From Bacteroidaceae bacterium (GTDB lineage: Bacteria > Bacteroidota > Bacteroidia > Bacteroidales > Bacteroidaceae): a stretch of 64,000 bases of DNA. Both the position numbers and the translations under genes were made by a program. The stretch covers positions 62,001 through 126,000 of the forward strand of contig JAFWPH010000012.1 of assembly GCA_017509605.1 (NCBI GenBank), in the 5' to 3' direction. The notes below the pieces were generated by a model. The model did not search any database. It saw only the letters and a program-made list of their open reading frames with translations, and was not told where the DNA came from. This document shows positions 25,571-60,300 of this stretch, piece by piece; position 1 is the first letter of the stretch, and each line of letters begins with the position of its first letter.

Positions 25571-27094
25571 CTAAAGACTAATCTTATTGATTTCGCCCAG
25601 AGCGTCCTCGCTCTTATCGATGGCAGAGAGGACATCGAAGACACGGTCGCTCCAACCTGCGATGAGATACACATCGGGTTCTACGATGCGCAGAGGGAGC
25701 TGTCCGTAGCCAGCGAGGTCGAAGAGATAGAGCTTGGCATCGGGCACCATCTGCTTGTAGCGGTGCCAGGAGTTCTCAAAGGTCTTATCACGCCCCGTGC
25801 TGTCCCACATCTGCATATCGGTGAACATCATCACCTTGTCCATCTCCTTCTTCTGGCTGATGAGCCAGTCGATGACCTTATAACCATTAGTGCTGAAACC
25901 TACGGTGTTAGCCAGCCTCTCCAACTGGCGGGTAGCCATCAGGATGTTGTCGTTGGGCATATTCACCACTCTCCAGGTGTCGCCAAATATTCCAGCTACG
26001 ACCTGCTTGCAGCGGTTGCGGAGCAACATCGACAGCAAGAGACCTATATCAAAGTGACGAACAGTGCTCTTCAGGCTTATAGATGACCACATTGAACCGC
26101 TGACATCGGAAGCCAGCAAGACGCGTGTGTTCTCGTCGAAGCCTTCAATGTTGCTTGCAGAGGCCTTGACGGCGGCCTCCAAGGCATTCATCAGTGTTGC
26201 GGTGTGGCCGGAATCCACCTTCTCAATCTCGCGGTAGGCAGACAGATAGCGGAAGGGCAACTGCTTGGACTTCGCCACCTGCTGGGCATCAGCAAGGCGG
26301 TTGGCCACCTTCTGCATCTCGAGGAGGGAGATATCGGCCTGGAGCATATTTCGCAGGTTGCGCATCAGAGCCATATAACCCATCTTGCCGCTGTTCACCA
26401 GCTCTTCCCACTTCTGGCGGAAAGCCTCTCTCTTCAGCTCGTCGGAGTCGAACTGCTGCTGACCGAGTGCAGAGAGTTCTGTTTCCCAAGTATAAGGAGT
26501 CTCCAACTGGCCGTTCGCAATCTTGTCGAAAAGCGCCTGCTGCTCTTCGTCCTTGGCCTTGGGGTGAACGAGGAACAATGCGTCGCGGAGCTTCACCTCG
26601 AGATTATCGCGGTCGTACTTGGCGAACTGGTATTCGTCAAATCGGTTGAATGCACGCTGCAAACCGTTCTGAATCTGGCGCGACAACTTGCCCAGCTTCT
26701 TGCGTGGGTCGGTGGAAGGGTTGCGCCACTGGTAGCACATCAGCAACTCCATAATCTCGTCGGCACGAAGCACTGTCTTCTCCACGGCACGGGCCACAAG
26801 GTCGTCGCCATTGTGTACCTTTGCCAGTTCAACCAGGAGGAGCAGTGGAACGCTGCGGAGATTCATCACTGTGCGTGTATATACTGCGAGACGTGCCACA
26901 AACTCTGGAGACACCTTCTTGACAAGCTTTGCAATACGGTTGGTACGCTCGTCCTGCTTCTCGTAGAAAGTATCGCTGAGCGATGCAGTCACTACGGCAG
27001 AGTAGAGTTCCAACTCAGGGGTCATCGCGTAAGCGTTGGCGCCCTCGTAGTTCTTCTCGGTATTCTGTTCTCTCAACATAGAATTGTACTTCAT
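25571..27094 (-). CDS. TROVE domain protein, bacterial Ro60 (Rsr) family
   Basis: A 507-aa Ro60-type RNA-binding protein. The TROVE helical-repeat domain (~15-315) begins with YAMTPELELYSAVV and includes the pattern of paired helices around LRSVPLLLLVELAK. A von Willebrand A domain (~320-500) has the MIDAS motif DVSGSMWSS (Asp330, Ser332, Ser334). Known: Ro60 forms a ring that binds misfolded RNAs in its cavity and Y RNAs on its surface; in bacteria it can tether a Y RNA to an exonuclease. Here the gene follows, on the same strand, about 0.7 kb of tRNA-like sequence that could supply its Y RNAs. The divergent genes encode RNA-end processing enzymes. No signal peptide; cytoplasmic. Confidence 0.93.
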   Translation of the reverse strand: MKYNSMLREQNTEKNYEGANAYAMTPELELYSAVVTASLSDTFYEKQDERTNRIAKLVKKVSPEFVARLAVYTRTVMNLRSVPLLLLVELAKVHNGDDLVARAVEKTVLRADEIMELLMCYQWRNPSTDPRKKLGKLSRQIQNGLQRAFNRFDEYQFAKYDRDNLEVKLRDALFLVHPKAKDEEQQALFDKIANGQLETPYTWETELSALGQQQFDSDELKREAFRQKWEELVNSGKMGYMALMRNLRNMLQADISLLEMQKVANRLADAQQVAKSKQLPFRYLSAYREIEKVDSGHTATLMNALEAAVKASASNIEGFDENTRVLLASDVSGSMWSSISLKSTVRHFDIGLLLSMLLRNRCKQVVAGIFGDTWRVVNMPNDNILMATRQLERLANTVGFSTNGYKVIDWLISQKKEMDKVMMFTDMQMWDSTGRDKTFENSWHRYKQMVPDAKLYLFDLAGYGQLPLRIVEPDVYLIAGWSDRVFDVLSAIDKSEDALGEINKISL

Positions 27095-27159: not shown

Positions 27160-27230
27160 TAGAGAGTCATGAATCCCTCGATTATCAGTCGAGTGCTTTC
27201 TGACGTAGCTAATGAAGTATCTCTCTACTA
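27160..27230 (-). ncRNA. Ile(GAT)-like tRNA remnant (module 5)
   Basis: An exact anticodon arm, CTCGA-CTGATAA-TCGAG (27177-27193, anticodon GAT), with a short D-arm-like GCT/AGC hairpin before it and an acceptor-like TAGAGAG/CTCTCTA stem. A normal T-arm is missing. Confidence 0.5.
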
Positions 27231-27235
27231 CGGCA
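27213..27235 (-). repeat. Y-RNA-like motif copy 5 (nearest the Ro60 gene)
   Basis: TGCCGTAG, spacer, TACTTCA; the only copy ending in A. Part of its spacer (CTCTCTA on the plus strand, 27221-27227) can pair with 27160-27166, forming a 7-bp acceptor-like stem around the Ile-like module. Confidence 0.65.
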
Positions 27236-27332
27236 ACCGTTTTTGGTAAGCAGAAGCGACAGGCGGGCAACAGGCGGGAGTCTCGCAAAGATTTTTGAGA
27301 AAAACCAGTAAAAACCCTCCCTCATGGTGGAG

Positions 27333-27356
27333 CGAAGTATCTGTCATCCTACGGCA
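27333..27356 (-). repeat. Y-RNA-like motif copy 4
   Basis: TGCCGTAG, 9-base spacer, TACTTCG. Followed on the minus strand by a short CTCC/GGAG stem and GGGTTTTT (27310-27330), which could act as a weak terminator or attenuator before the Ro60 gene. Confidence 0.65.
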
Positions 27357-27371
27357 TTCTGCGTTTTTTTG

Positions 27372-27444
27372 TTGCGGGGGCAGGACTCGAACCTGCGTCC
27401 TCAAGCTTATGAAACTTGCAAGCTACCAACTGCTCCACTCCGCT
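27372..27444 (-). ncRNA. Initiator-Met(CAT)-like tRNA mimic inside the array
   Basis: A 73-nt sequence in normal tRNA order: acceptor, D-arm GAGC-AGTTGGTA-GCTT, anticodon arm CAAGT-TTCATAA-GCTTG (anticodon CAT), T-arm GCAGG-TTCGAGT-CCTGC. Position 1 does not pair with 72, as in bacterial initiators. However, the three G-C pairs of an initiator anticodon stem are absent, acceptor pair 6-67 is A x C, and the 3' end reads ACA rather than CCA. It may be scored as a tRNA by software, but it looks like a mimic derived from tRNA-fMet. Confidence 0.6.
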
Positions 27445-27481
27445 GTATGAAGCAAGGCTACTAGCGAAAAGACACAGTCAT

Positions 27482-27533
27482 TGCTCTGCCCACTGAGCTA
27501 CATGGACGAATCCACGGCTGGATTTGAACCAGC
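27482..27533 (-). ncRNA. Circularly permuted tRNA-like module with UUCG-capped acceptor stem (module 3)
   Basis: Minus-strand order: T-arm (GCTGG/CCAGC with TTCAAAT loop), acceptor 3' strand CGTGGAT, then TC, then acceptor 5' strand GTCCATG, T8-A9, and a canonical D-arm (GCTC/GAGC). The seven acceptor pairs close on a UUCG loop, so the normal 5' and 3' ends of a tRNA are joined and there is no CCA end to charge. An anticodon-arm-like segment (CTCTTAA loop, 27535-27551) precedes the T-arm. Confidence 0.7.
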
Positions 27534-27551
27534 GACCCCTGGCTTAAGAGG

Positions 27552-27574
27552 CGAAGTAAGTCTTATCTACGGCA
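27552..27574 (-). repeat. Y-RNA-like motif copy 3
   Basis: TGCCGTAG, 8-base spacer, TACTTCG. The spacer bases ATAAGA pair with TCTTAT just upstream, giving a hairpin with the conserved GCCGTAG in its loop. Confidence 0.65.
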
Positions 27575-27620
27575 CTTGCTTATAAGATGTGAGGCGACAA
27601 GCGGTGAGGGTTCTAAACTA

Positions 27621-27682
27621 CACCAGCGAACTGGTGGCAGGAATCGAACCTGCACTTTCGAATCTGCTATCCGACGTTCAAC
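27621..27682 (-). ncRNA. tRNA-like module with UUCG-capped acceptor stem (module 2)
   Basis: Minus-strand order: a D-arm-like hairpin (27666-27682), a short TTCG-containing segment where the anticodon arm would be, a perfect T-arm GCAGG/CCTGC with TTCGATT loop (27637-27653), then CACCAG-TTCG-CTGGTG (27621-27636). The joined acceptor cannot be aminoacylated. Confidence 0.65.
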
Positions 27683-27687
27683 CATTA

Positions 27688-27710
27688 CGAAGTATTCCTC
27701 TCCTACGGCA
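27688..27710 (-). repeat. Y-RNA-like motif copy 2
   Basis: TGCCGTAG, 8-base spacer, TACTTCG; preceded on the minus strand by a CACCTTTTT/AAAAAAGTG hairpin. Confidence 0.65.
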
Positions 27711-27819
27711 CTCACTTTTTTATTAAAAAGGTGGGGTGCAACGGTCGAAAGCGGACTTTTGGGAAAACCCAACGTTGGTTATCAGGAACTGAATCCTGCA
27801 CCTTCTACGGTTTATCAAA

Positions 27820-27842
27820 CGAAGTAACCCCTCACTACGGCA
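27820..27842 (-). repeat. Y-RNA-like motif copy 1 (start of the array)
   Basis: TGCCGTAG, 8-base spacer, TACTTCG. Spacer bases GGGGT can pair with ACCCC near the end of the module (about 27733-27737). Confidence 0.65.
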
Positions 27843-28095: not shown

Positions 28096-28103
28096 CAAAA
28101 GTA
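28096..28103 (-). promoter_or_regulatory. -7 element (TACTTTTG) for the array and Ro60 transcript
   Basis: Minus-strand TACTTTTG fits TAnnTTTG. Its expected -33 region (about 28123-28128) lies inside operator 1. Transcription from here would cover the multi-hairpin element, the tRNA-like array and the Ro60 gene. Confidence 0.5.
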
Positions 28104-28112
28104 AAATGCCAC

Positions 28113-28131
28113 TACGCAATGTATTTGCGTA
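28113..28131. promoter_or_regulatory. Operator 1: TACGCAA-N5-TTGCGTA
   Basis: A perfect 7-bp inverted repeat with a 5-base spacer, placed over the expected -33 region of the leftward promoter. Confidence 0.6.
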
Positions 28132-28170
28132 AATCAAAAAATTTTCAGAAAAAGGTGAAAAAAACGACTT

Positions 28171-28189
28171 TACGCAAATAGGTTGCATA
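28171..28189. promoter_or_regulatory. Operator 2: TACGCAA-N5-TTGCATA
   Basis: Same 7-5-7 layout as operator 1 with one mismatch in the right arm, 58 bp away, placed over the expected -33 region of the rightward promoter. Confidence 0.6.
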
Positions 28190-28198
28190 GTTAGTGCC

Positions 28199-28206
28199 TA
28201 TCTTTG
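28199..28206 (+). promoter_or_regulatory. -7 element (TATCTTTG) for the rlaP-like operon
   Basis: TATCTTTG fits TAnnTTTG exactly and lies 31 bases before the ATG at 28237. No TTTG is found in the -33 region, which is occupied by operator 2. Confidence 0.55.
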
Positions 28207-28236: not shown

Positions 28237-29427
28237 ATGAACAATTTTGATGTTATCCGTCAGGACGGCAGGCTCCTTTACGAGTATATCCGGGGAAGTC
28301 ACCTCTACGGACTCAACAATGAGGACAGCGACATCGACACCAGCGGTGTCTATGTCTGCACACGTGACGAACTGTTCAGCTGCTTCGGCTACTCGCCCCA
28401 GGTGACTGACAGCCGCCACGACAACACATGGTATGAGATAGGAGAACTGGTCCGTCTGCTTCTGAAATCCAACCCCACGGTGCTGGAAAGCCTCTTTGTG
28501 CCGAGGGACAAAGTAATCGGTGACATTCATCCCATCATGCAGATGGTCATCGACCAACGAGACCAGTTCATCAGCAAGCAGTGCTTCAATCCTTTCTTCG
28601 GCTATGCCAAGTCGCAGATAGAGAAGGCATGGGGACTGAACAAGAAGATTGTCAATCCTGTGACCGAACGCCTGACGCCATACGATTTTATCTATACTTT
28701 CAAGGGGCAGGGTAGCACGAAGTTCAGCGACTGGCTCGACAATCGCAGTATGCATCAGGAGTTCTGCGGTCTTGTCAACGTGCCCAACATGCACGACATC
28801 TATGGCGTGTATTATGACTTTGGAGCGCACACCGCCGCTTATCCGGACTGGAGAGAAGACGGGCGGTTTCTATCTTTCTGCCAAGAATATTATGGAGACA
28901 CGGAAAAGGTCGCTGTCATCGAAAGACTGTCAAAGATGGTGCCGATAGGCTATCGTGGTGTCATCAAGAAGGATGCCAAGGCCGATGAGATACGACTCTC
29001 CTCCATTGACGACAAGCACACTCGTCCGATGTGCTTCATCTCCTACAACCAAAGTGGATACTCCATGCATTGCCGTCAATATGCGGAATACCAGATATGG
29101 GTGAGCAACCGCAACCCGAAACGCTATGAGTCGAACCTTGACAAGAACTACGACTCGAAGAACATGATGCACTGCTTCCGGCTGATGCACATGGCAGCGG
29201 AGATAGCGGAGGGTAAGGGAGTGATACTGCAACGCACCGAGGACAGGCAGTTCCTGATGGATGTGCGCAACCACAAGTTCGAATACGAGGAAATCATCGA
29301 GATGCTGGAACGTGATAAGGAGCGGATGAACCATCTGATGGAACAGTCCACCATCCGTGAGAAGATTGACACGGACTTTGTCAATAACCTGATGATAGAG
29401 ATTCGGAAACAACAATTCAGAATGTAA
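28237..29427 (+). CDS. RlaP-type nucleotidyltransferase (DNA polymerase beta superfamily), predicted RNA repair
   Basis: A 396-aa protein whose N-terminus carries the polymerase-beta-type nucleotidyltransferase signature: Gly20-Ser21 in RGSHLYG and Ser31-Asp32-x-Asp34 in EDSDID. The rest (~60-390) is mostly helical and matches the overall form of the RlaP family (RNA repair pathway DNA polymerase beta family). Known: members were proposed from gene neighbourhoods to modify RNA ends; a firm reaction is not established to my knowledge. It is the first gene of a tight three-gene operon (1-bp gap to the kinase) divergent from the Ro60 gene and its tRNA-like array. A decayed copy of its first codons lies at 30682. 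Confidence 0.82.
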   Translation: MNNFDVIRQDGRLLYEYIRGSHLYGLNNEDSDIDTSGVYVCTRDELFSCFGYSPQVTDSRHDNTWYEIGELVRLLLKSNPTVLESLFVPRDKVIGDIHPIMQMVIDQRDQFISKQCFNPFFGYAKSQIEKAWGLNKKIVNPVTERLTPYDFIYTFKGQGSTKFSDWLDNRSMHQEFCGLVNVPNMHDIYGVYYDFGAHTAAYPDWREDGRFLSFCQEYYGDTEKVAVIERLSKMVPIGYRGVIKKDAKADEIRLSSIDDKHTRPMCFISYNQSGYSMHCRQYAEYQIWVSNRNPKRYESNLDKNYDSKNMMHCFRLMHMAAEIAEGKGVILQRTEDRQFLMDVRNHKFEYEEIIEMLERDKERMNHLMEQSTIREKIDTDFVNNLMIEIRKQQFRM

Positions 29428-29428
29428 T

Positions 29429-29899
29429 ATGAAGAAACTTCCATTTGACATTAGGCAGACCTGTCAGATTATCGTGTTCATCGGCATTCAAGCCAGTGGA
29501 AAAACCACCTTCTTCAAGCAATGGTTGGCTCCTCATGGTTATGTCCATATCAATCTTGACACTCTACGCACACGTCCCAGGGAATCGCTGGCCATCCAGG
29601 AGTGTTATGACCGTGAACAGTCGTTCGTCGTCGACAACACCAATCCTGAGAAAACCGATAGGGAGAGGTACATTCAAGATGCCAAGGCGCATGGCTATGA
29701 GGTGATAGGCATTTTCTTTCAGAGTATAGTGAGAGACTGCATTGTCAGGAATGATATGAGAGAGAAAAAAGTCCCCGTGAAGGCAATCCCCTGTACACAA
29801 AACAAATTACAGCTGCCCAACTATGCTGAAGGATTTGATAAACTCTATTTCGTGAGAATAAAGGATATTGATTTTTTAATATCAGAATGGAGGGAATGA
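29429..29899 (+). CDS. P-loop kinase, polynucleotide 5'-kinase-like
   Basis: A small (156 aa) P-loop phosphotransferase. Walker A is G19IQASGKTTF, an Asp/Asn pair follows in VVDNTNPEKTDRERYI (Asp69), and a lid-like Arg-rich stretch is at ~105-115 (VRDCIVRNDMREKK). This resembles the kinase half of T4-type polynucleotide kinase and bacterial AAA_33 proteins. In context it probably phosphorylates 5'-OH RNA ends, the step that would prepare substrates for a Thg1-type polymerase. It sits 1 bp after the nucleotidyltransferase and 3 bp before thg1. A small-molecule kinase cannot be excluded. Confidence 0.78.
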   Translation: MKKLPFDIRQTCQIIVFIGIQASGKTTFFKQWLAPHGYVHINLDTLRTRPRESLAIQECYDREQSFVVDNTNPEKTDRERYIQDAKAHGYEVIGIFFQSIVRDCIVRNDMREKKVPVKAIPCTQNKLQLPNYAEGFDKLYFVRIKDIDFLISEWRE

Positions 29900-29902
29900 A
29901 AC

Positions 29903-30676
29903 ATGGACTTTAATACACTTGACAAACTGATGAGACGTTTCGAGCAGTCACTGGATAGGACCATGCTCAATGGGATTTATATGGTGGCTAGACTAGACGG
30001 GCATGGATTCACGCGCCTTACCAAGAAAGAATGGAATCTGGAGAAACCTTTTGACATTCGGTTTCGTGATGCCATGATAGAAACCACAAAGCATTTGATG
30101 GATTGTGGTTTTCGCATGATCTACGGCTACACGCAGAGTGACGAGATATCTCTTCTATTCCATTTGAAAGACAACACTTTTGGCAGAAAAGAGAGAAAAC
30201 TGTTGTCTATACTTGCAGCAGAAGCATCTGTGGCGTTTTCTATGCAGACAGGCAGAGCGGCTGTATTCGATAACAGACTTGTTCCTTTGCCAACAATGGA
30301 AAACGTGGTGGACTATTTCAGATGGCGGCAGGAGGATGCACACCGTAATTCCCTAAACTCACACTGTTATTGGAAATTACGCCAGGAAGGTGTCTCTGCA
30401 GATGAAGCACAAGAGCAACTAGCAGGAATCTCCAATAGTGAGAAGAATGAACTTTTGTTCTCGAGAGGCGTCAATTATACTGATTTACCTTCATGGCAGA
30501 AACGAGGCGTTGGTATGTTCTATCGTGATGATGATAGGCAAGGCTTCAATCCTATTACTAAAGAAACTACATCTTATAAAAGACGCATGCTATGTGTAGA
30601 GATGGAATTGCCGATAGGACAAGAGTATTCCAAATTGATTAACACGGTCGTTGAGGATTCAAATAAAGGGGATTAG
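29903..30676 (+). CDS. thg1: Thg1-like 3'-5' RNA polymerase (tRNA-His guanylyltransferase family)
   Basis: A 257-aa Thg1-family protein. The metal-binding carboxylates are visible in ARLDGHGFTRLTK (Asp32) and YTQSDEISLLF (Asp80, Glu81). The family's HRNSLNSHCYWKLR segment is present at ~150-163. Known: Thg1 and bacterial or archaeal Thg1-like proteins add nucleotides to the 5' end of tRNA in the 3'-5' direction; bacterial forms favour templated repair of 5'-truncated tRNAs. It is the last gene of the rlaP-kinase-thg1 operon, beside a Ro60 gene and tRNA-mimicking RNAs, so a role in tRNA 5'-end repair is inferred. Confidence 0.92.
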   Translation: MDFNTLDKLMRRFEQSLDRTMLNGIYMVARLDGHGFTRLTKKEWNLEKPFDIRFRDAMIETTKHLMDCGFRMIYGYTQSDEISLLFHLKDNTFGRKERKLLSILAAEASVAFSMQTGRAAVFDNRLVPLPTMENVVDYFRWRQEDAHRNSLNSHCYWKLRQEGVSADEAQEQLAGISNSEKNELLFSRGVNYTDLPSWQKRGVGMFYRDDDRQGFNPITKETTSYKRRMLCVEMELPIGQEYSKLINTVVEDSNKGD

Positions 30677-30681
30677 AAACA

Positions 30682-30735
30682 ATAGATTTTGATGTAATCA
30701 AAAATGGGGAAAGGCTGCTGTATGAGTACATACGC
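30682..30735 (+). pseudogene. Decayed 5' fragment of a second rlaP-like gene
   Basis: Six bases after thg1 one frame reads IDFDVIKNGERLLYEYIR. This matches the first ~19 residues of the nucleotidyltransferase at 28237 (NFDVIRQDGRLLYEYIRG), then diverges. There is no ATG and no GS...DxD motif. It is read as the remains of a tandem copy. Confidence 0.55.
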
Positions 30736-30792
30736 AGCAGCCTCCTCTTTGAGAAAAACGAAATTATCGCAAACCAACTGATGCTGGTGGCA

Positions 30793-58407: not shown

Positions 58408-60300
58408 TTATCGTCCCATGAGCACCAGCAGTACATTGATGTCGCTGGGCGAGACACCAGGTATGCGGCTAGCCTGTGCAAGTGTCTCTGGATTGATCTT
58501 GGCAAGTTTCTGACGTGCCTCGATCGTGATATGTTGCATATTGGCGTAATCAAACTTCCCCTGGATACGAATATCTTCAAGTCGAAGCATCTTCTCCGCC
58601 ACTTGTTGTTCGCGCATAATGTAACCTTTGTACTTAATGCGAATCTCGGCGGCCTCAATCGTTTCTTCCTTACGGTCATCTATGCGCTGCAGTTCTGCGG
58701 AAAGAGGCGAAATGAATGGCGCGATGTTGTCGAAGGTGATTTGTGGTCGCTCCAGTAAATTCGTCAACTTGCATCCACGCTGGAGTGGAGTAGAGCCTAA
58801 CGTGGCCAGTGCGTCATTGATAAGTGAGGCCTTAACGGAGAAATTGTACGTGAAATGCAACAAGCGCTCTATATTCATTTCTTTGGTCTGGAAATGTTGG
58901 TAACGTTGTGTGGTAGCCAGTCCGATGTCGAAAGACTTCTTCGTCAGTCGTGCGTCAGCGTCATCTTGTCGCAACAGGATACGGTATTCGGCACGTGACG
59001 TAAACATGCGGTAAGGCTCATCCACACCTTTGGTCACAAGGTCATCAATGAGGACGCCAATATAAGCTTCATTACGTTTCAGCACGAAGGGCTCACCACC
59101 TCCACAGTTTATGGCAGCGTTAATGCCTGCCATCAGCCCTTGTCCTGCTGCCTCCTCATAACCTGTGGTGCCATTGACCTGACCTGCAAAGAAGAGATTC
59201 TTCACCAGTTTCGACTCTAAGTTGTGCTTCAGTTGAGTGGGGTCGAAAAAGTCATATTCAATGGCGTATCCCGGGCGGTAGGCGACGAGATTGCGGAAGC
59301 AGGGTATCTTCTTCAGCGATTCAATTTGGATATCCATCGGGAGAGAGGAAGAGAAGCCATTCAGGTACATCTCGTTGGTATCCTCACCCTCGGGTTCCAA
59401 AAAGAGTTGGTGTTGTTCCTTATCAGGAAAAGTATGAAGTTTAGTCTCAATACTTGGGCAGTAACGTGGACCGATGCTTTGGATTTGTCCATTATAGAGT
59501 GGTGAATCTGGCAACCCTTTAAGCAGGTGTTCATGCACCTCATTGTTGGTATAGCATATCCAGCAAGGAAGTTGTTGGAGGGGTCTGCCTTGGTTCATGA
59601 ATGAGAAAGTGTGAAAATCATTCTCACCTTTCTGTTCTTCCATGAGAGAGAAATCTACACTGCGCTTGTCTATCCTGACGGGTGTACCTGTTTTCATTCT
59701 ATCGGAACGAATACCCAGTGCATTGATAGACTCCGTCAGCATCAAGGCGGCAGGTTCAGCTATTCTGCCACCTTGGATCTTTACACGTCCAATATGCATC
59801 AGTCCGTTAAGGAATGTTCCAGCTGTAATAATCACACACTTGGCATGAAACTCAGCACCAAGTAGTGTTTTAACACCTTGAATCTCAGATTGTTCTGATG
59901 ATTTAATTGTCTTGTTCACCAAAATCTGAGTTACTTGATCCTGCCAGATGTTGAGATTGTCGGTATGGTCAAGAACGGAGCGCCAAGTCCAAATAAACTT
60001 CTCCCTGTCGCATTGGGCGCGGGGACTCCAGACAGCTGGCCCTTTAGATTTGTTGAGCATTCGGAACTGGAGAGCACAACGGTCAGTAACCATTCCCATC
60101 TGACCTCCGAGGGCATCAATCTCACGCACTATCTGCCCCTTTGCTATACCGCCCACTGCAGGATTGCAACTCATCTGGGCTATCTTGTTCATGTCCATGG
60201 TGATGAGACAGGTCTTGGCTCCCATGTTCGCTGCCGCACAAGCCGCCTCACATCCGGCATGACCCGCGCCTACCACAATGACATCGTAATTGAAAAGCAT
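58408..60300 (-). CDS. mnmG: tRNA uridine-5-carboxymethylaminomethyl modification enzyme
   Basis: MnmG (GidA) with MnmE makes cmnm5U34 in tRNA wobble positions. The protein is 630 aa from ATG 60300 (MLFNYDVIVVGAGHAGCEAA); an ATG seven codons upstream is less likely. FAD-binding GAGHAG at the start, the family block GPRYCPSIETK, and GQVNGTTGYEEAAGQG are present. In many bacteria it lies near oriC; here it neighbours two parS-like sites, but no parAB or oriC is visible. Confidence 0.97.
   Translation of the reverse strand: MLFNYDVIVVGAGHAGCEAACAAANMGAKTCLITMDMNKIAQMSCNPAVGGIAKGQIVREIDALGGQMGMVTDRCALQFRMLNKSKGPAVWSPRAQCDREKFIWTWRSVLDHTDNLNIWQDQVTQILVNKTIKSSEQSEIQGVKTLLGAEFHAKCVIITAGTFLNGLMHIGRVKIQGGRIAEPAALMLTESINALGIRSDRMKTGTPVRIDKRSVDFSLMEEQKGENDFHTFSFMNQGRPLQQLPCWICYTNNEVHEHLLKGLPDSPLYNGQIQSIGPRYCPSIETKLHTFPDKEQHQLFLEPEGEDTNEMYLNGFSSSLPMDIQIESLKKIPCFRNLVAYRPGYAIEYDFFDPTQLKHNLESKLVKNLFFAGQVNGTTGYEEAAGQGLMAGINAAINCGGGEPFVLKRNEAYIGVLIDDLVTKGVDEPYRMFTSRAEYRILLRQDDADARLTKKSFDIGLATTQRYQHFQTKEMNIERLLHFTYNFSVKASLINDALATLGSTPLQRGCKLTNLLERPQITFDNIAPFISPLSAELQRIDDRKEETIEAAEIRIKYKGYIMREQQVAEKMLRLEDIRIQGKFDYANMQHITIEARQKLAKINPETLAQASRIPGVSPSDINVLLVLMGR

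Follow-up and report, generated by a model that had tools for sequence, protein, structure and literature searches.

WYL activators with palindromic sites over the -35 region are already known, as are RNA-repair operons under a single regulator, RtcR. DriD of Caulobacter crescentus is a WYL activator with a winged helix-WYL-WCX layout. It binds a pseudo-palindromic site of ~20 bp over the -35, also at its own divergent promoter, and its sites overlap the -35 at a fixed distance from the -10 in promoters with a poor -35 (PMC12340889). The mycobacterial WYL-WCX activator PafBC enables the housekeeping polymerase at promoters without a good -35 (PMC11804915). The WYL factors BrxR and CapW bind inverted repeats whose arms stand 5 bp apart (PMC9122601). 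In the rsr-yrlBA-rtcBA system of Salmonella, RtcB, Ro60 (Rsr) and the Y RNAs all answer to a single regulator, RtcR, which binds tRNA fragments and responds to them (PMC7790460).

The locus studied here lies in a window of 64,000 nucleotides, the whole stretch of Bacteroidaceae DNA that was analysed, and carries twin palindromes at the promoters of two divergent transcription units. Very probably both sites are bound by a single regulator, predicted to be of the WYL family, and mark RNA-repair genes across Bacteroidota. Because the genes share such regulator sites, the RNA-repair kit of the cell is probably switched as one unit. The locus, with its predicted regulator, resembles each of the described systems in the features given above and differs from each in others. 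DriD responds to ssDNA that arises from DNA damage, and its targets are DNA-repair genes; the genes linked here serve RNA repair, and their operator reads TACGCAA-N5-TTGCGTA. PafBC is a heterodimer that uses one half-site at ~-26 at DNA-damage genes, and its ligand is ssDNA; ssRNA did not activate it. BrxR and CapW repress phage-defence genes, have arms of 10-11 bp and are a weaker fold match. RtcR carries a CARF domain and belongs to the sigma-54 enhancer-binding proteins, in contrast to the TAnnTTTG promoters and linked WYL protein described below.

Table. Features around the twin palindromes, with positions in the window.
Feature	Position	Strand	Remarks
Ro60-like protein (TROVE + vWA)	25571..27094	-	PF05731 93 bits, PF25045 32.3 bits
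Y-RNA-like array (five modules, tRNA-like parts)	27214..27841	-	GCCGTAG...TACTTC; module starts 27821, 27689, 27553, 27334, 27214
-7 box TACTTTTG, array/Ro60 promoter	28096..28103	-	operator A 9 bp away; -33 box (TTTG) absent; same spacing in relatives
Operator A (putative)	28113..28131	-	TACGCAAATACATTGCGTA on the minus strand; over the -33 region of the array/Ro60 promoter; kept in relatives
Operator B (putative)	28171..28189	+	TACGCAAATAGGTTGCATA; over the -33 region of the rlaP promoter; kept in relatives
-7 box TATCTTTG, rlaP promoter	28199..28206	+	operator B 9 bp away; -33 box (TTTG) absent; conserved
RlaP nucleotidyltransferase of RNA repair	28237..29427	+	PF10127 75.5 bits
PNK-like kinase (AAA_33)	29429..29899	+	domain match
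Thg1-like 3'-5' polymerase	29903..30676	+	PF04446 108 bits, PF14413 66 bits

A sequence-only reading of this DNA had described two palindromes of the form 7-5-7, one over the -33 region of each divergent promoter, and had given the flanking genes as Ro60, rlaP, a kinase and thg1. The palindromes (TACGCAA-TGTAT-TTGCGTA for operator A, TACGCAA-ATAGG-TTGCATA for operator B) were found at the positions and over the promoters it had given, and all four genes were borne out by domain matches. That the window holds no other such palindrome was also correct, since at up to one mismatch these two are the sole matches; the next best, at 59279, has three mismatches, which is the chance expectation. Similarly, the 28 nt upstream of each -7 box contain no TTTG, in agreement with the missing -33 box that had been noted for both promoters. 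Operators A and B are inverted copies of one another over 23 nt (87% complementary), and their common reading on the transcribed strand is TACGCAAATA-N2-TTGC[G/A]TAG-N8-TAnnTTTG. The constant distance of 9 bp from the end of the palindrome to the TAnnTTTG -7 box at both promoters had no place in that reading. The Y-RNA array sits between operator A and the Ro60 gene and contains a tRNA-Met-like unit at 27371-27444. A TROVE/vWA protein thus adjoins Y RNAs with tRNA-like parts, as in described Ro60/Y RNA pairs, although the array scores 34 and 19.9 bits against Rfam YrlA, below the gathering score of 69 bits. None of the four RNA-repair ORFs adjoining the window sites encodes an RtcR.

The sequence-only reading had proposed that a single regulator joins both transcription units, and had tied this proposal to conservation of the palindromes in close relatives. 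Such conservation was indeed seen. In a footprint sample of 80 loci encoding RlaP relatives, both operators are retained upstream of rlaP in ~9 relatives (L053, L054, L056, L058, L059, L064, L069, L071 and L075). Some operator copies are degenerate, for instance in L054. Both -7 boxes are retained at the same place in these ~9 relatives, while the intervening sequence drifts. The divergent partner of rlaP is an array, with or without Ro60, in L054, L071 and L075, and rtcB in L053, L056 and L058; in L058, the rtcB that adjoins rlaP has the same operator. Arrays apart from rlaP (L055, L058, L072) keep their own operator just upstream, and the Y-RNA array has an upstream operator in loci that cover both the array and its upstream DNA. 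No site was seen at operon-internal genes in the relatives' loci (kinase, thg1, and the WYL gene when last), which provides a natural negative control, or at some rlaP genes of other contexts (L060, L063, L074). Since the operators follow rlaP, arrays and rtcB even when these lie apart, the proposal of one regulator joining two units is well supported. In L059, seven operator-like sites occur in 6 kb (L059:6855-12747), some of them before small unknown genes and an apparent second RlaP-like gene.

The genome-wide palindrome search that had been suggested alongside the sequence-only reading returned a third mismatch-free site with the same 9-bp layout (G000:C73:41951-41986), so that the compound site occurs three times in this genome, twice in the window. 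The third site is upstream of a 472-aa gene whose product has no family match. Similar short stems were seen in the leader of this gene in three genomes (L160, L161, L162; CCGTCGA...TTATGGA...TCTTCTCCAA); in G090 the operator is degenerate but equally spaced, and none was seen in G222. A further palindrome with one mismatch (C30:24287) is probably due to chance; it lies inside an apparent ribosomal protein S20 gene and has no -7 box.

Allowing up to two mismatches, the compound pattern matched 49 times in 399 genomes of the family (reversed pattern, 1) and 11 times in 61 relatives (reversed control, 0). These genome-scale counts and reversed controls rule out a chance palindrome. In both searches the pattern itself fixes the 9-bp spacing, so our statement on spacing is drawn from loci picked by protein similarity. 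By our own tally, 24 of the 49 matches lie at RNA-repair genes (rtcB, Ro60/array, rlaP, kinase-thg1), at DUF2828, at the 472-aa gene, at one WYL family, or at tRNA arrays beside short regulator relatives. Ten further matches are before or beside other WYL genes in the same tally, and the remaining 15, placed in neither group, were counted against a WYL activator.

At L157:1501 (-) the operator and promoter are followed directly by an ordinary tRNA array, and likewise at L151:1501 (+), which is the same as L038:976. The arrays read Ser-Ser-Phe-Tyr-Trp-His-Cys and Ser-His-Arg-Cys, lie near a short regulator relative with the putative N-terminal DNA-binding part only, and perhaps supply replacement tRNAs. 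At L154:1501-2250 an operator is followed by a broken rtcB start, a second Y-like array type (GGTCnAA...TACTTC) and then an unknown protein.

The operator reaches beyond the family. In 965 kb of Flavobacteria and other distant loci the palindrome occurs 31 times at up to one mismatch, compared with 0 for the reversed pattern and 0 or 1 in six simulations. The distant sites lie at WYL orthologs (~45-52% identity), RtcB, a second RlaP family, Hen1 and T4-type RNA ligase, and the functions at these sites are mostly RNA repair. Nine single operators between divergent genes in Flavobacterium (L097, L098, L108, L109, L111, L113, L116, L126, L129) embed TTTG-N19-TAnnTTTG on one strand; on the opposite strand the -7 box follows at 10 bp and the -33 box is absent. 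Hen1 and T4-type RNA ligase genes are among the neighbors of such operators. Where checked, the embedded promoter faces the WYL gene or the gene before it. This promoter layout suggests autorepression on the WYL side, and because an embedded consensus promoter looks like repression it was counted against a WYL activator.

The regulator was left unnamed in the sequence-only reading; the linking of the two units is supported, and comparative evidence now points to a WYL-domain protein. The protein that recurs in relatives has ~337 aa, a near-invariant N-terminal half, and WYL and WCX domains that score above cut-off (PF13280, 40.3 bits; PF25583, 37.1 bits). Its N-terminus has no Pfam HTH match, and a structural model of medium quality (pLDDT 67, pTM 0.47) places three helices and a beta hairpin at residues 5-81. 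Full-length fold matches of this model are led by PafBC (PDB 9fnd), followed by DriD (8tp8), which is also among the sequence-profile matches. The WYL gene is last in the rlaP-kinase-thg1 operon in L056, L068, L071 and L075, follows rlaP in L053, L058, L066, L069 and L070, lies just downstream of rlaP with its own site in L059, and is divergent from rtcB with twin operators in L010, L020 and L021. In a hand tally (Fisher test), with family membership set at >=44% identity and short wHTH-only relatives included, the site is present in 12 of 15 genomes with the WYL family and in 5 of 236 without it; the latter number rises to 10 when TATGCAA-type matches are counted too. WYL proteins at ~30-37% identity lack the site in their loci. 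In genus g20, a different WYL family (L141-L146, L153) carries TATGCAA-N5-TTGCATA ahead of its own gene, again at 9 bp from a -7 box (TATATTTG) and at 23-34 bp from the start; the genes that follow vary.

Neither a close WYL ortholog nor rtcB was found in the source assembly, which is 88% complete, and G003 has sites and no WYL ortholog that we could find. The absence of a close ortholog from these two assemblies was counted against a WYL activator. The only WYL protein of this genome, on C15, was rejected as the regulator, as it has 25% identity and no such operator was seen upstream of it. On the 3' side of thg1, the window at ~30680-30750 reads IDFDVIKNGERLLYEYIRSS and by eye resembles the start of RlaP. 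By its sequence, this short stretch appears to be what is left of a second rlaP copy, and it occupies the place where close relatives have the WYL gene after thg1. Thus a rearrangement may have removed the WYL gene; alternatively, the gene may lie in the missing part of the assembly.

Of 43 cases in loci that were picked by protein similarity, 33 have the -7 box at 9 bp, against a background of 0.0005 per offset. The layout is that of DriD sites: a palindrome over the -35/-33, a fixed distance to the -10/-7, and a poor -35/-33. We prefer activation based on the near-fixed spacing, the -33 position, the absent -33 box and the fold matches to DriD and PafBC. It is likely, judging from sequence comparison for both binding and activation, that the operators serve a dimeric, DriD-like WYL-WCX activator of an RNA-repair regulon. 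In the proposed mechanism, a dimeric winged-helix WYL-WCX factor would bind the palindrome across the -33 position, with half-sites flanking the spot where sigma region 4 would sit. The bound factor would compensate for the missing -33 box and allow RNA polymerase to use the TAnnTTTG 9 bp downstream. The factor would be switched on by a ligand in its WYL domain, for which a nucleic acid released by RNA (tRNA) cleavage is the most likely candidate. Here it would then induce two units side by side, the Y-RNA array with Ro60 and the rlaP-kinase-thg1 operon; in relatives its targets would also include rtcB and the WYL gene itself. An RNA end or fragment may be the ligand, to go by the analogies with RtcR, a binder of tRNA fragments, and with ssDNA-sensing WYL factors.

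The same regulon and the same WYL regulator could instead work by repression, with the factor sitting on the -33 region and leaving on ligand in the manner of BrxR/CapW. The operators do overlap the promoter, BrxR is a WYL repressor whose inverted repeats have a 5-bp spacer as here (PMC9122601), and a consensus promoter is embedded on one side of the Flavobacterium operator. However, with no -33 box at either window promoter, derepression alone leaves weak promoters; steric blocking does not require a near-fixed spacing to the -7 box; and DriD and PafBC, the best fold matches, are activators. We consider repression unlikely.

An improbable reading keeps the regulon and assigns direct binding to some other, unlinked regulator, with the WYL protein merely co-regulated or co-inherited. 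The intact operators of this genome, whose 88%-complete assembly yielded no such WYL gene, would fit, but the WYL family is the sole regulator seen beside sites across many species, and the gene of the second WYL family is itself preceded by a matching TATGCAA operator. A DNA cruciform, terminator or RNA hairpin in place of a protein site is hardly credible. The two sites together do make up an inverted repeat of 23 nt whose halves are 35 nt apart, but single promoter-linked copies before rtcB, WYL genes and separated arrays contradict such a structure, and sites upstream of the -7 box would not be transcribed from these promoters.

The literature searched, which was limited in reach, contained neither a WYL-controlled RNA-repair regulon nor a WYL-linked operator shared by many RNA-repair genes of a phylum; in three of the RNA-repair papers that mention WYL, the word appears only in a reference or with regard to CARF neighbors. 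Tentatively, and a little short of an even call, we hypothesize a phylum-wide RNA-damage response of Bacteroidota in which a WYL factor senses RNA cleavage products and induces a repair set together. The induced set would comprise ligation (RtcB, T4-type ligase), end healing (RlaP, kinase, Thg1, Hen1) and Ro60 along with the Y-RNA arrays; in some genera it would include tRNA arrays too. Such a response would be the RNA counterpart of the DNA-damage responses of DriD and PafBC. RNA repair across much of a phylum would then be governed by a single regulon that has one readable operator, any gene with the operator would become a candidate for RNA repair, and a WYL-domain sensor of RNA damage would be testable in cultured Flavobacterium. 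If this is true, WYL factors, so far tied to DNA damage and phage defence, would also guard RNA.
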